DNA of 64,000 nt from an uncultured Roseateles sp. GTDB lineage: Bacteria; Pseudomonadota; Gammaproteobacteria; Burkholderiales; Burkholderiaceae_C. Below, piece by piece: positions 42,488-46,644 of the stretch. Numbering within the stretch: the first letter of the stretch is position 1; each line of letters starts with the position of its first letter. The DNA lies in NCBI RefSeq assembly GCF_945956965.1, contig NZ_CAMFJS010000003.1, positions 62,001-126,000 of the forward strand. The letters run 5' to 3'. Below the pieces are notes generated by a model. It made no database searches. It saw nothing but the letters and a program-made list of their open reading frames with translations, and was not told the DNA's origin. A program made the translations under genes and the position numbers.

Positions 42488-42865
42488 ATGGAATTTCAAT
42501 TCGTCCGCCCCTTGAGCCTGCGCGCTCGCCAGGCTGCGGCCTCAACCCTTGTTTGCCTGCCGCTGCTGTGTTCGGCCCAAGGCATTGCCATTGCCAAAGT
42601 GCCCGCACCCAGCTTGGCCGGCCCTTCGCTGGTGCAAGCCACCAAGGGCGCCGTTTTTGAGGGGCGCGGTTACCCGCCGAACACCGCGGTGTCGATCGCC
42701 ATGCAGGCGCCCAATGGCGTTGAGTCCCAGTTTTCGGTCATGGTCAGCCCGGCGGGCACGCTCACTTACCGGGTTCCCGCCAGCATGGCCGGGGCGCACA
42801 AACTGAGTGTTCTGGACAGCTCGGGCAAGGCCTTGGCGAGCACCAATTTCATCGTGACGCAGTGA
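42488..42865 (+). CDS. Small exported Ig-like protein
   Basis: The 125-residue protein has a likely signal peptide (about 1-31; arginine-containing N-region, hydrophobic core and LCSAQG cut site). The mature part reads as one beta-sandwich: FEGRGYPPNTAVSIAM...VSPAGTLTYRVPASMAGAHKLSVLDSSGKALAS, an Ig/IPT-type pattern. No catalytic motif. It is the first gene of a run of exported-protein genes, with 7 bp to the next, so co-transcription is likely. Confidence 0.75.
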   Translation: MEFQFVRPLSLRARQAAASTLVCLPLLCSAQGIAIAKVPAPSLAGPSLVQATKGAVFEGRGYPPNTAVSIAMQAPNGVESQFSVMVSPAGTLTYRVPASMAGAHKLSVLDSSGKALASTNFIVTQ

Positions 42866-42872
42866 GGCCGCG

Positions 42873-44009
42873 ATGATGCAGTCGAGGCAAACAAAACACT
42901 TGAACAGGCAGCCTCCCAATCGGATCAGCCTAGTGGTCGCTGCAGCCGCCCTGCTTGCAGGCACGACAGCTGGCCATGCGAGTGAGCCCGCGAGCGGCGC
43001 TGTTGCTGGTGCTGTCGGCGTCACTGGTACATCGGTGGCGAGTGTGGCCTATGTGTCCCTGCGCGGCGGCGACCCGCAAATCTGGGTGCAAAACAGCCAG
43101 GGGCGTGAGCAGGTTCTCACCCAAGGTAAAGCGCTCTATGCCCAACCCGCTTTGGCCAGCGATGGTCGTTTGGCCTATGTGGCGCGAGAAGCCGGCCGCC
43201 CCGTGGTCTACACCATGAACGGCGACGGCTCCGCTCAGCAGCGTATCTCCACGGGAACGGAGGCTGAGATGGCACCGAGCTGGTCGCCCGATGGCCGATC
43301 ACTCGCCTTCTTTGCCCTGGACTTGCAAAGCGGGAAGTCGGTGCTGCGTCTGGTCAATCTCCAAACCCAAACAAGCACCACCATCGCCGGCCCCAGCACA
43401 TCCATGGGGCCAGCGCCAGCAAGCTGGTCGGCCGACGGAAAACGGCTGTGTTTTCTGGGCCAAGATGCCAAGGGCCGCACCCAGGCATTCGTCGTCCAGC
43501 ATGACGGCAGTGGCTTGAAGGAGCTGAGCAGCAAGTTCGCGCCACGCGGCGCAGCTTGGGCGGAGCTGTCCCCCGACGGCAAGAAGGTCGTTTGGGTGGC
43601 CGATCTGCGCGAGAAGCGCTCGCATCTGATCGTCACCGATGTCGACACGGCTCAGTCCACCGACCTCACCGCCGATGTGGTGGCCTCTCACGAATCTCCC
43701 CGGTGGTCACCCGACAGCCAGTACCTGGTGTTCTCCAGCACCCGTGATGACCCCGCAGGCACGCGCACCGACATTCACACCATGAAGTTCGATGGCAGCG
43801 AACTGCGCAACCTCAGCCACCACCCTGCAGAGGATTTCGATCCGAAATGGAGCAGCGACGGGCGCCACATCATCTTTGCCAGCTTGCGCAGCGGCACCTC
43901 GCTGCTCTACCAAGTGGATCTGCAAGGCAACAAGACCGAGGCACTGGCGCAGCATGCTTCGCATGACATGGACCATTCGGTGCGGCCTGTGGCCCTGCTG
44001 GCGCGCTGA
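42873..44009 (+). CDS. Exported TolB-like beta-propeller protein
   Basis: The 378-residue protein has a signal peptide (about 15-36, ending GHAS). At least five WD40-like PD40 repeats follow, seen as PSWSPDGRSLAFFAL, ASWSADGKRLCFLG, AELSPDGKKVVWVA, PRWSPDSQYLVFSS and PKWSSDGRHIIFAS. It is TolB-like only in fold: there are no tolQRA or pal genes nearby. It lies between the small Ig-like gene (7-bp gap) and the dockerin gene (72-bp gap), so it probably belongs to the same surface complex. Confidence 0.85.
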   Translation: MMQSRQTKHLNRQPPNRISLVVAAAALLAGTTAGHASEPASGAVAGAVGVTGTSVASVAYVSLRGGDPQIWVQNSQGREQVLTQGKALYAQPALASDGRLAYVAREAGRPVVYTMNGDGSAQQRISTGTEAEMAPSWSPDGRSLAFFALDLQSGKSVLRLVNLQTQTSTTIAGPSTSMGPAPASWSADGKRLCFLGQDAKGRTQAFVVQHDGSGLKELSSKFAPRGAAWAELSPDGKKVVWVADLREKRSHLIVTDVDTAQSTDLTADVVASHESPRWSPDSQYLVFSSTRDDPAGTRTDIHTMKFDGSELRNLSHHPAEDFDPKWSSDGRHIIFASLRSGTSLLYQVDLQGNKTEALAQHASHDMDHSVRPVALLAR

Positions 44010-44081
44010 TCAGGCTGAGCTTTCAATCAACCAAGCCAGGCTGCGCTCACGCGCGAGTCAGGCAAGACCAAGGATCTCACC

Positions 44082-45866
44082 ATGAACACCACTTCTTCCA
44101 GGTCCGCCCGCGGCCGGATTCACGGCGCCACCCGTGACGCCTCACTGGCCATCGGATTGCTGACGGCGCTCAGCCTTTGTACTGGTGCCAACGCCGCCTC
44201 CAAGACCTACACGCTGGACGCTGATTTCGATCTGGGCATCCTGTCCGGCGTCAATCACACCGCACCCAATAACAATCAACTGCAACTGAACACCACGGGG
44301 ACAACGTTTCCTGTGATGTGGATCGCCAATGCCGGCGAAGACACCGTGAGCAAGTTCGACACCAATGCCAACGTCGAACTGGCCCGCTACCGCACTTGGT
44401 TCGGGCCGGCCGGTCAAGCAGGTCATATCAGCCATCTGGGCGACGCCTACTCGGGCCCCGCACCATCGCGCACCGCGGTGGACATCAACGGCAATGCCTA
44501 TGTGCTGAACCGCTGGTTTGCTAACCGCAAACCGGTGCTGCTGAAGCTGCTGAGCGAAGGCTTTATCGACCGCAATGGCAACGGCATCATGGACACGTCA
44601 ACGGGTGCAGTGCCTATGCCCATGGCCGACACCAATGGCAACGGCGAAATCGATGACAACGAGATCACCGATGAGCGCATCGCCTGGGCCGTGCAGGTGG
44701 GCGACCAAAACGGCCTCGGCCGCTCCCTCTGCATTGGCACCGATGGCAATCTGTGGGTTGGCATGTTCAACACACAGCGCTATTACAAATACAGCTCGGT
44801 CGATGGCAGCTTGTTGGCTGGGCCGGTGCAGACAACGCCGACGGCAGGCCAACCGAACTCGGGCTCATGGCAGCCCTACGGCTGCTTGATCGACAAGAAC
44901 GGTGTGCTCTGGAGTGCCTCGCTGGGCGGCCCCCTGGGCAAGATCAGCAACACAGCCAGCAACACCGGCCCCTATACCGTTGCCTCCTTCCCGGGTGGCA
45001 TGTACGGCATTGCTTTGGGCAATGACAAGGTCTATACCGGCAGCAATAACCGCGTTTTTGACCCCGCGACCAATACCTCCGCAGCGATCGGTGGGCTAAG
45101 CGTCAGCTCAGCAGGCATCGTGGTTGATGGTTCCGGCAACATCATTGCTGGCACCAACACCGTGCAGAAGGTCTCGCCTGCAGGCGTCACTTTGTGGACG
45201 GCGCCATTGCAGGCAGGCGGCGCCTACTCCGTCGGTATTCAGGTGGACGCCAACAATGACATCTTCCAGATCGGCTACGGCTCCAACCGGGTGCACAAAT
45301 ACCGTGGCAGTGACGGTGCACCACTCGGAACCTTCCCCGTCGGCAGCGTGCCTTACACCTATAGCGATGCCGCCGGATTTGCCGCCCGCAACTCCACCAC
45401 GCCCACGGGAACCTGGACGGTGACCCATGACGGCGGCGCTGCTGGCGCCGCTTGGGATCGCATCAACTGGACCGATTCAGTGCCCGCCGGTAGCGCCGTG
45501 ATCGTCCAGTACCGCAGCGCGGATCTGGCAGCCAACCTCCCTGCTTTGCCCTATCAGACCGCCAGCAAGAATGTGCCCTTCACCGCCAGCGGCCGCTTCA
45601 TCCAGGTCTTGACCCGATTGAATGCCAACACCAGTAACGAATCACCGCTGCTCTACGACTTGACCATCAGCGCCAAGATCACCGCCTGCGATGTGGACTT
45701 AGACGGCGATGTGGACACGGTCGACCTGGCCCTGATTCGTGCCGGCATCGGCAAGACACCCACAGCCGGTGATCCTCGTGACGCCAATGGCGACGGCCTC
45801 ATCGATGCTCGCGATTTGCGCGCCTGCACCTTCAAATGCACCCGCAGCAACTGCGCAGCGAACTGA
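44082..45866 (+). CDS. Exported propeller protein with C-terminal dockerin-type domain
   Basis: The 594-residue protein has a signal peptide (about 20-39). Residues 75-435 form a Vgb/NHL-like propeller with repeated IDKNGVLWSAS-type blades. Two EF-hand loops are inserted at D163-D171 (DRNGNGIMD) and D183-E194 (DTNGNGEIDDNE). Residues 440-532 look like a beta-sandwich. The end (536-592) has two perfect dockerin calcium loops, D537-D548 (DVDLDGDVDTVD) and D567-D578 (DANGDGLIDARD), plus a conserved-looking C-x3-C-x4-C end. The cohesin-like PEP-CTERM protein is the next gene, 62 bp downstream, which makes it the obvious partner. Confidence 0.85.
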   Translation: MNTTSSRSARGRIHGATRDASLAIGLLTALSLCTGANAASKTYTLDADFDLGILSGVNHTAPNNNQLQLNTTGTTFPVMWIANAGEDTVSKFDTNANVELARYRTWFGPAGQAGHISHLGDAYSGPAPSRTAVDINGNAYVLNRWFANRKPVLLKLLSEGFIDRNGNGIMDTSTGAVPMPMADTNGNGEIDDNEITDERIAWAVQVGDQNGLGRSLCIGTDGNLWVGMFNTQRYYKYSSVDGSLLAGPVQTTPTAGQPNSGSWQPYGCLIDKNGVLWSASLGGPLGKISNTASNTGPYTVASFPGGMYGIALGNDKVYTGSNNRVFDPATNTSAAIGGLSVSSAGIVVDGSGNIIAGTNTVQKVSPAGVTLWTAPLQAGGAYSVGIQVDANNDIFQIGYGSNRVHKYRGSDGAPLGTFPVGSVPYTYSDAAGFAARNSTTPTGTWTVTHDGGAAGAAWDRINWTDSVPAGSAVIVQYRSADLAANLPALPYQTASKNVPFTASGRFIQVLTRLNANTSNESPLLYDLTISAKITACDVDLDGDVDTVDLALIRAGIGKTPTAGDPRDANGDGLIDARDLRACTFKCTRSNCAAN

Positions 45867-45928
45867 GCCTTCATCCACATGCGAGTCACTTGCGACTTGA
45901 ACCCAGCTGTTACCTCAAGGAGTTTGAA

Positions 45929-46588
45929 ATGAAAATGAAAACACTTGCCATCGCCGCCAGTGCGCTGGTCTTGCTGGTCTCGGGCGCACAGGCGGCGCCA
46001 GTGCTCAGCCTGAGCCCTGTCGTGTCCTCCCAACTGGTGGGCAACACCTTCTCCTTGGACGTCAAGATCACCGGCCTGGGCAGCGAGATTGTTTCGGTGT
46101 TCGATCTGAACATCTACTTCAACCCCGCCCAACTTAAAGCCGTCAGCTACAGCCTGGGTTCTGGCTTAGGCGGCCCCTGGACGGATCTTGGACTGGATCC
46201 AGCTGCACCAGGGTCACCAACAGACTCGTTCGATCTGTTCGCATATTCCAATCTTGTCGACCCCTTGGACCCGCTGACCGATGACAACTTGGCTGGGCTA
46301 CAGACGGACGACAGCTTCGTCCTGATGACCCTGAACTTTCAGGCCATTGGCGCCGGTGTCTCACAAGTCTGGTTCGGAGCCGGCGCCAATGAGCGAGACC
46401 TTGTGGGCCGGAATGCACTCTTGCTTCAGGACGTGCAGTTCCAAGATGCCTGCGTTGCCGTCAACAGCCCCACCGGAGGCAACAACAGTTGCAACCAGAT
46501 CCCCGAGCCCAATAGCTATGCCCTGCTAGGTCTGGGCCTTTTTGCGGCATTTGCGCCCACTCTGGCGCGCCGGCGCAAGGCGGACTGA
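45929..46588 (+). CDS. PEP-CTERM-anchored cohesin-like protein
   Basis: The 219-residue protein has a signal peptide (1-22, ending AQA). The body (about 24-175) has a cohesin-like beta-sandwich pattern: VGNTFSLDVKITGL...VSVFDLNIYFNPAQLKAVSYSLG. A Cys pair in the spacer is followed by the sorting signal: P192-E193-P194, a hydrophobic helix and RRRK. PEP-CTERM proteins are processed by exosortase; no exosortase gene is in the window. ATG 45929 follows AAGGAG. A strong terminator closes the cluster. Confidence 0.85.
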   Translation: MKMKTLAIAASALVLLVSGAQAAPVLSLSPVVSSQLVGNTFSLDVKITGLGSEIVSVFDLNIYFNPAQLKAVSYSLGSGLGGPWTDLGLDPAAPGSPTDSFDLFAYSNLVDPLDPLTDDNLAGLQTDDSFVLMTLNFQAIGAGVSQVWFGAGANERDLVGRNALLLQDVQFQDACVAVNSPTGGNNSCNQIPEPNSYALLGLGLFAAFAPTLARRRKAD

Positions 46589-46614: not shown

Positions 46615-46644
46615 AAAGCCGCGGCACAGTCCGCGGCTTTTTTT
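46615..46644 (+). terminator. Intrinsic terminator after the cohesin-like gene
   Basis: The stem AAAGCCGCGG/CCGCGGCTTT with a 6-nt loop is followed by seven Ts. It closes the transcription unit that starts at 42488. Confidence 0.93.

Follow-up and report, generated by a model that had tools for sequence, protein, structure and literature searches.

The window, by which we mean the whole stretch of 64,000 nucleotides analysed here (C3:62001-126000 of a 4.96 Mb genome), contains four open reading frames in a row on the + strand, at 42488-42865, 42873-44009, 44082-45866 and 45929-46588; the four consecutive co-oriented genes of the first-pass annotation were thus recovered. All four were also thought to encode exported proteins, which is consistent with their N-termini, judged by eye to be signal-peptide-like. 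The first encodes a small protein of 125 aa (42488..42865), for which Pfam gave only a weak match to a PGS Ig-like domain (E=0.046, far below the cut-off). The second encodes a PD40/TolB-like beta-propeller of 378 aa (42873..44009; PF07676, E=1e-35), in which neither a dockerin nor a sorting signal was found. The third (44082..45866) encodes a propeller protein of 594 aa that ends in a dockerin, here called the passenger, and the fourth (45929..46588) a cohesin protein of 219 aa with a PEP-CTERM signal, here called the anchor. The ATG of the anchor gene at 45929 is preceded on the same strand by AAGGAG (45917..45922), which resembles a ribosome binding site. A strong terminator was said to close the operon; past the fourth gene there is indeed a terminator-like stem-loop with a 10-pair stem and a T tail (46615..46640, +), but it is a consensus match that does not rise above background, as three such matches were found in the operon region versus 3.5 expected from shuffled sequences.

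The dockerin domain of the third protein (45684..45845, +) contains the two dockerin-type calcium loops that had been noticed at the end of this protein, D537-D548 (45690-45725) and D567-D578 (45780-45815). The two calcium loops, of 12 residues each and spaced by some 30 residues close to the C-terminus, correspond to the dockerin type I pattern, and an alignment of 28 dockerins shows all four loop-end aspartates in every sequence. With a cut-off of 22.9 bits for PF00404, the domain scored 21.1 bits in an hmmscan of the protein and 25.7 bits, over the cut-off, in a search of the genome; the dockerins of its closer relatives (type A, the window's type) reach 32.9 bits. Searched alone against the PDB, the window dockerin gave a weak best match (E=0.0018), with calmodulins following from E=0.024; a profile of 28 dockerins (A5; 23 of the window type and five others) matched 2y3n_B best (E=2.7e-11), the best calmodulin being at E=9.5e-6. 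A profile of the passenger protein matched the designed Pizza propellers (E=1.2e-13) and PknD (E=1.2e-7), which we take to be of the NHL type. A third EF-like loop lies at D183, inside the propeller part and ahead of the dockerin.

The cohesin body of the fourth protein (168 aa, the part modelled) is encoded at 45995..46498 (+) and is followed by a PEP-CTERM sorting signal at 46496..46576 (+), in which P192-E193-P194 precedes a hydrophobic stretch and RRRK, just as first annotated; the signal passes the PF07589 threshold (22.9 versus 20.7 bits), and the protein begins with a signal-peptide-like stretch when judged by eye. The cohesin itself remains below the PF00963 cut-off in a Pfam hmmscan (19.4 versus 24.1 bits). 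Among nine of its relatives, eight match this model at E<=1 and two pass the cut-off (L049 with 26.4 bits and L048 with 52.3 bits, E=8.7e-14); no PF00963 match was obtained for the protein of L031, which belongs to a second type (type B). A profile of 28 cohesin bodies (A3) matched 18 different sequences in the PDB at E-values of 1 or lower, led by 3l8q (E=1.1e-9); 12 of these are titled scaffoldins, and the other six (two titled Endoglucanase and four NagJ) are presumably cohesins as well, several of the matches spanning only positions 10-56 of the 150 in the profile. The AlphaFold2 model of the cohesin body is confident and mostly beta, with 12 strands and one helix (pLDDT 92.6, pTM 0.88). 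At the level of sequence, the proposed cohesin-like body therefore found support, the family profile matching only cohesins among solved structures, and cellulosomal cohesins and dockerins are the closest solved relatives of the two window families. The window cohesin and dockerin are each borderline singly and become convincing only through their family profiles, and the fourth protein is, through its family, best regarded as a cohesin of divergent sequence that carries a PEP-CTERM tail.

The window genome encodes both XrtA (350.8 bits versus a threshold of 208) and XrtB (351.7 versus 275 bits). It has 46 PEP-CTERM places, two of which were found to have a cohesin body, and these two adjoin the only two dockerin places in the genome at E<=0.001; two further, weak dockerin matches (E 0.30 and 0.84) lie in one frame of 6700 aa. 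The genome thus holds two pairs, that of the window and a type-B pair on contig C33, where a gene with weak PGAP1-like similarity, below the cut-off, is located between cohesin and dockerin. Two pairs with different dockerin types in one genome suggest insulated specificities.

The neighbourhood of dockerin and cohesin genes turned out to be strongly conserved, as one would expect if the proposed gene order is meaningful, in an initial search, in a census of the family and outside the family. When 59 genomes were searched with the window cohesin, 24 places in 14 genomes were recovered, seven of which (L013, L014, L016, L021, L024, L025, L026) matched through the PEP-CTERM tail only and were dropped. 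Beside all remaining 17 cohesins there is a dockerin gene: 12 loci are of type A, four are of type B, with the dockerin accompanying a hydrolase-like gene, and one (L048) has a cohesin adjoining a reprolysin-like protein. A scan of named genomes yielded nine loci with an adjoining dockerin in nine of nine, five repeating earlier loci and four new (Beta proteobacterium AAP51, Aquabacterium terrae, a Proteobacteria MAG and Ideonella sp. A 288).

The census comprised 250 genomes drawn from the family, and since PF00963 at E<=0.001 misses the window's own cohesin, two profiles, A1 and A6, were used as well. Profile A1 covers the cohesin body and ends before the PEP motif; its members were picked by likeness to the window cohesin and not by their dockerin neighbours. 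It detected 32 cohesin places in 22 genomes, and a dockerin recognized by Pfam's own model is present within 5 kb of 22 of them, compared to 0.08 expected by chance, and within 750 bases of 13; at L103, one of the 22, cohesin and dockerin share a single long frame. With a dockerin profile built in the course of this work, dockerin-like sequence was adjacent to or within about 4 kb of all 32 cohesins, a count that is partly circular because the profile was seeded by the loop pattern with 39 ORFs of the same loci. An exosortase was found in 22 of the 22 census genomes with a cohesin versus 134 of 250 overall (Fisher p=4.6e-7, with relatedness ignored). Profile A6, whose members were all dockerin-linked cohesins, was searched against 349 genomes of the phylum and gave 10 places in seven genomes; eight of these places belong to six genomes of other families in the same order or class. 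Around these eight cohesins Pfam's own dockerin model, PF00404, has a match within 2 kb in eight of eight cases (seven pass its threshold, the eighth has E=0.002), although this proportion may favour dockerin-linked cohesins owing to the way A6 was made. All eight outside-family tails have the same build, with PEP in four and SEP, PAP or PIP in the other four, and the canonical PEP is found in 44 of 54 tabulated cohesins, the remaining 10 showing AEP, SEP, PAP, PIP or DEP.

These 54 pairs were tabulated after omission of L103, of L116 (a weak cohesin match with the dockerin at its N-terminal end), of L122 (at a contig end, with no PEP-CTERM or dockerin seen), of L123 (no dockerin), of near copies and repeats (L034, L045, L051, L053, L054, L057, L058, L090, L097, L118 and the second pair of L093), and of L148 and L149, which came to light later. 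The two genes are on the same strand in 50 of the 54 pairs, and 45 of these 50 are separated by no more than 100 bases or overlap, overlaps being upper limits as each frame was counted from its earliest start codon. The dockerin gene precedes the cohesin gene in 40 pairs, the order is reversed in 10, and four pairs lie on opposite strands. Across the 54 pairs, dockerin identity and cohesin identity co-vary (rho 0.63). The correlation persists among the 1252 comparisons between non-homologous passengers (rho 0.48; maximum of 2000 permutations, 0.17) and among the 596 in which the gene order differs in addition (rho 0.51), a value reached in 0 of 2000 permutations that were shuffled within order classes (maximum 0.31), a procedure which leaves shared ancestry in place. 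At 27 of 54 loci the top dockerin match also ranks among the three best cohesin matches, versus 9.6 expected, and at the other half it does not. Linked genes can co-vary without binding.

The passengers themselves are highly diverse. A Pfam scan of 20 proteins from such loci, 19 of them dockerin proteins, revealed peptidases (reprolysin-like, C25, M20, M9 collagenase), a GH10 protein at L114, a glucuronyl-esterase-like protein with CBM9, a VWA7-like protein, a calcineurin-like phosphoesterase, a metallo-beta-lactamase fold, a GDSL lipase, an endonuclease/phosphatase fold, and PKD and IgGFc-binding-like proteins, which together with the propeller amounts to 14 passenger kinds; no passenger domain above the Pfam cut-off was found in L107, L031, L059 and L094. 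The type-A anchor, too, is not confined to the propeller, as it also accompanies two further passenger kinds, found at two loci each (L036, L039, L059, L094). The linked module, which had first drawn interest within one operon, is not peculiar to it and is a cassette that recurs with many different passengers.

The other two genes of the operon follow the propeller passenger. A homologue of the TolB-like propeller is present at 17 of the 17 other propeller loci, and of the small first protein at 14 of 17, one of the three loci that lack it (L043) being situated at a contig end; at the four type-A loci with a different passenger both are absent (0 of 4 each). Genes 1 to 3 therefore apparently represent one functional unit from which the anchor is separable, because genes 1 and 2 track the propeller passenger and not the anchor. 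The propeller of the third gene probably does its work jointly with the products of genes 1 and 2; a role in recognition or matrix binding would be a guess. It had also been supposed that the TolB-like propeller might be held at the surface through the same cohesin, a suggestion that we do not follow: neither a dockerin nor a tail was found in this protein, and it occurs with the propeller passenger and not with the anchor, so that it was rejected as a second docked protein.

Taken together, domain types, sorting signal, exosortases, linkage and co-variation lead us to regard genes 3 and 4 as a cognate pair which forms a private, exosortase-sorted cohesin-dockerin anchor, a reading to which we assign a probability of about 0.74 and in which binding and location are the inferred part. 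Both proteins would be exported, and XrtA or XrtB would sort the cohesin via its PEP-CTERM tail into the envelope or into the layer of exopolysaccharide. There the cohesin domain may grip the calcium-folded dockerin at the propeller C-terminus, with binding presumably dependent on calcium, and the propeller would thereby stay on the cell surface or within the matrix rather than being lost. In exosortase-bearing Pseudomonadota such a pair would act as a reusable cassette in which each passenger usually has a private anchor of its own.

A variant compatible with this explanation, which we consider possible though somewhat less than an even chance, is that the cohesin is freed after exosortase cleavage and that the clasp fixes the passenger in loose exopolysaccharide, i.e. 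in a floc or biofilm matrix. The PEP-CTERM protein PepA aids the retention of exopolysaccharide in Aquincola flocs (PMC9850573), and exosortase loss in Nostoc is reported to alter the exoproteome and the adherence to polysaccharide (PMC12188702), both of which would fit such a location. According to another study, exosortase substrates appear to remain membrane-anchored at the cell surface (PMC11980579), which speaks for the envelope instead.

The rule that cohesin and dockerin are linked is weaker from the dockerin side. With PF00404, the 250 census genomes contain 57 dockerin places in 41 genomes, and 28 of these places are linked to a cohesin; 14 of the other 29 places, in 13 regions, were examined, and many of the remaining 15 lie in giant frames. 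Two of the regions (L148, E=9e-14, and L149, E=1e-24) have an adjacent PEP-CTERM cohesin that is found only by A6, four (L154-L156, L159) are weak matches and probably not dockerins, and two (L157, L160) are on short contigs. The remaining five (L150-L153, L158) are good dockerins for which no cohesin neighbour could be detected in the regions examined, and two of them are from one genome (G093) outside the 134 genomes with an exosortase match. Such loci would be accounted for if the dockerin did not bind the neighbouring cohesin at all and served as a calcium-stabilised C-terminal cap or as a secretion determinant, the two genes being neighbours since both serve the cell exterior. We consider this unlikely, because the linkage from the cohesin side is nearly complete across unrelated passengers and families, and because the co-variation persists when order and passenger differ.

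Still less probable is a role in secretion, in which the dockerin would bind a cohesin carried by a type II/III secretin and the PEP-CTERM protein would compete for the dockerin or take it over. The census with PF00963 gave 36 places in 29 of the 250 genomes. A Pfam dockerin lies within 5 kb of 14 of these places, and three more (L090, L096, L121) have an adjacent dockerin by the profile built here; 13 are frames of 798-1030 aa, four are giant frames, and one (L122) is at a contig end. The PEP-CTERM protein of L123 has a cohesin match just over the cut-off (24.9 bits), and no dockerin was found in its region of 14.5 kb. All five proteins examined among the 13 long frames are secretins with a C-terminal cohesin, so that such fusions do exist in the same bacterial family; against their being the partner, a Pfam dockerin is present, by coordinates, within 5 kb of none of the 13 long frames, and PF00963, a model that also misses the window's own cohesin, gives no match in the window genome at E<=0.001. 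The idea of chance neighbours with borderline domain matches, suggested by the position of both window matches just under the Pfam cut-offs in hmmscan, has virtually no probability left and is ruled out by the census linkage, by the family-profile matches in the PDB and by the eight of eight cohesins outside the family.

The private anchor favoured here resembles the cellulosome in that a calcium-loop dockerin resides on the passenger and a cohesin on the anchored partner. Cellulosomes are anchored by S-layer-homology domains or by sortase, and in the pairs described here PEP-CTERM stands in their place. Unlike in cellulosomes, there is one cohesin per anchor protein and one neighbouring passenger, and most of the scanned passengers are not carbohydrases, though L114 has a GH10 domain. 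A cellulosome as such, which would call for a multi-cohesin scaffoldin and several carbohydrases with dockerins, was considered and rejected for the window locus: its anchor gene has one cohesin domain, there is no scaffoldin, and the passenger is a propeller. Cohesins and dockerins outside cellulosomes were reportedly treated by Peer et al. in 2009, a work beyond the scope of our literature search. In ANME archaea such proteins have been noted with their function called unknown (PMC5244752), and for Saccharophagus degradans dockerin-like and cohesin-like modules were pointed out and binding was left to future tests (PMC2386152); in contrast to the loci studied here, neither paper, in the parts considered, reports linkage of a dockerin gene with the gene of a sorted cohesin, or passengers that each have a private anchor.

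From the PEP-CTERM/exosortase system (Haft et al. 2006, PMC1569441) the window anchor has the signal-peptide-like start, the PEP-CTERM tail and the co-occurrence with exosortases; it differs in that the sorted protein resembles a receptor for a second, tail-less protein, and words beginning with 'cohes' or 'cellulosome' are absent from the main text of that paper. In the literature searched, we found no joint mention of PEP-CTERM with a cohesin domain or a dockerin, and the one paper that names both exosortase and dockerin treats them apart; among the matches listed, titles and the beginnings of abstracts describe no sorted cohesin-dockerin pair. An attachment of proteins to a Gram-negative surface by cohesin and dockerin has been engineered in E. 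coli (Ko et al. 2021, PMC9705933). That display is man-made, and the window pair would be its natural counterpart, using exosortase sorting.

Beyond the single locus, we think it likely that exosortase-bearing Pseudomonadota possess a natural and general display platform, in which dockerin-bearing passengers are tethered outside the cell by private, sorted cohesins encoded next door. Linkage, co-variation and sorting signals provide a specific and testable answer for many non-cellulosomal cohesins and dockerins, namely that they are one-to-one tethers on the cell exterior, and the loci collected here make up a catalogue of natural Gram-negative cohesin-dockerin pairs that are probably orthogonal. 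Some PEP-CTERM proteins may have to be understood as sites on which a neighbouring protein docks. If such a display platform exists, orphan non-cellulosomal cohesins and dockerins would gain a function, and PEP-CTERM proteins could be receptors and not effectors.

In the cohesins that go with the second dockerin type (type B), the PEP-CTERM signal lies in the middle of the protein at six loci from several species (L031, L044, L045, L046, L097 and L098), including one on contig C33 of the window's own genome (L031:10189-11235). Beyond the signal these proteins have another hydrophobic segment and then continue for about 100 residues more; at L098 the signal is a SEP variant. The usual site of this signal is described by Haft et al. 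(2006, PMC1569441) as being near the C-terminus virtually always.

At another locus, a cohesin and a PEP-CTERM-like segment share a single long open frame (L103:5000-9361) with a dockerin that lies about 900 residues further on; the proteins may be fused in nature, or the frame may be an artefact of assembly or of frame reading.

For the convincing dockerin proteins of L150, L151, L152, L153 and L158 no adjoining cohesin was detectable. Cohesin domains were also observed at the C-terminus of type II/III secretins (L142, L143, L144, L145 and L147), near which a comparison by coordinates found no Pfam dockerins.

The propeller part of the dockerin protein in the window (44082-45866, forward strand) contains a third EF-like calcium loop at residues 183-194. 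Furthermore, three PEP-CTERM proteins appear by eye to have a trypsin-like serine protease body, two of them arranged in tandem (L047:7238-8440 and L047:8822-9907) and one at a separate locus (L050:8905-9990).
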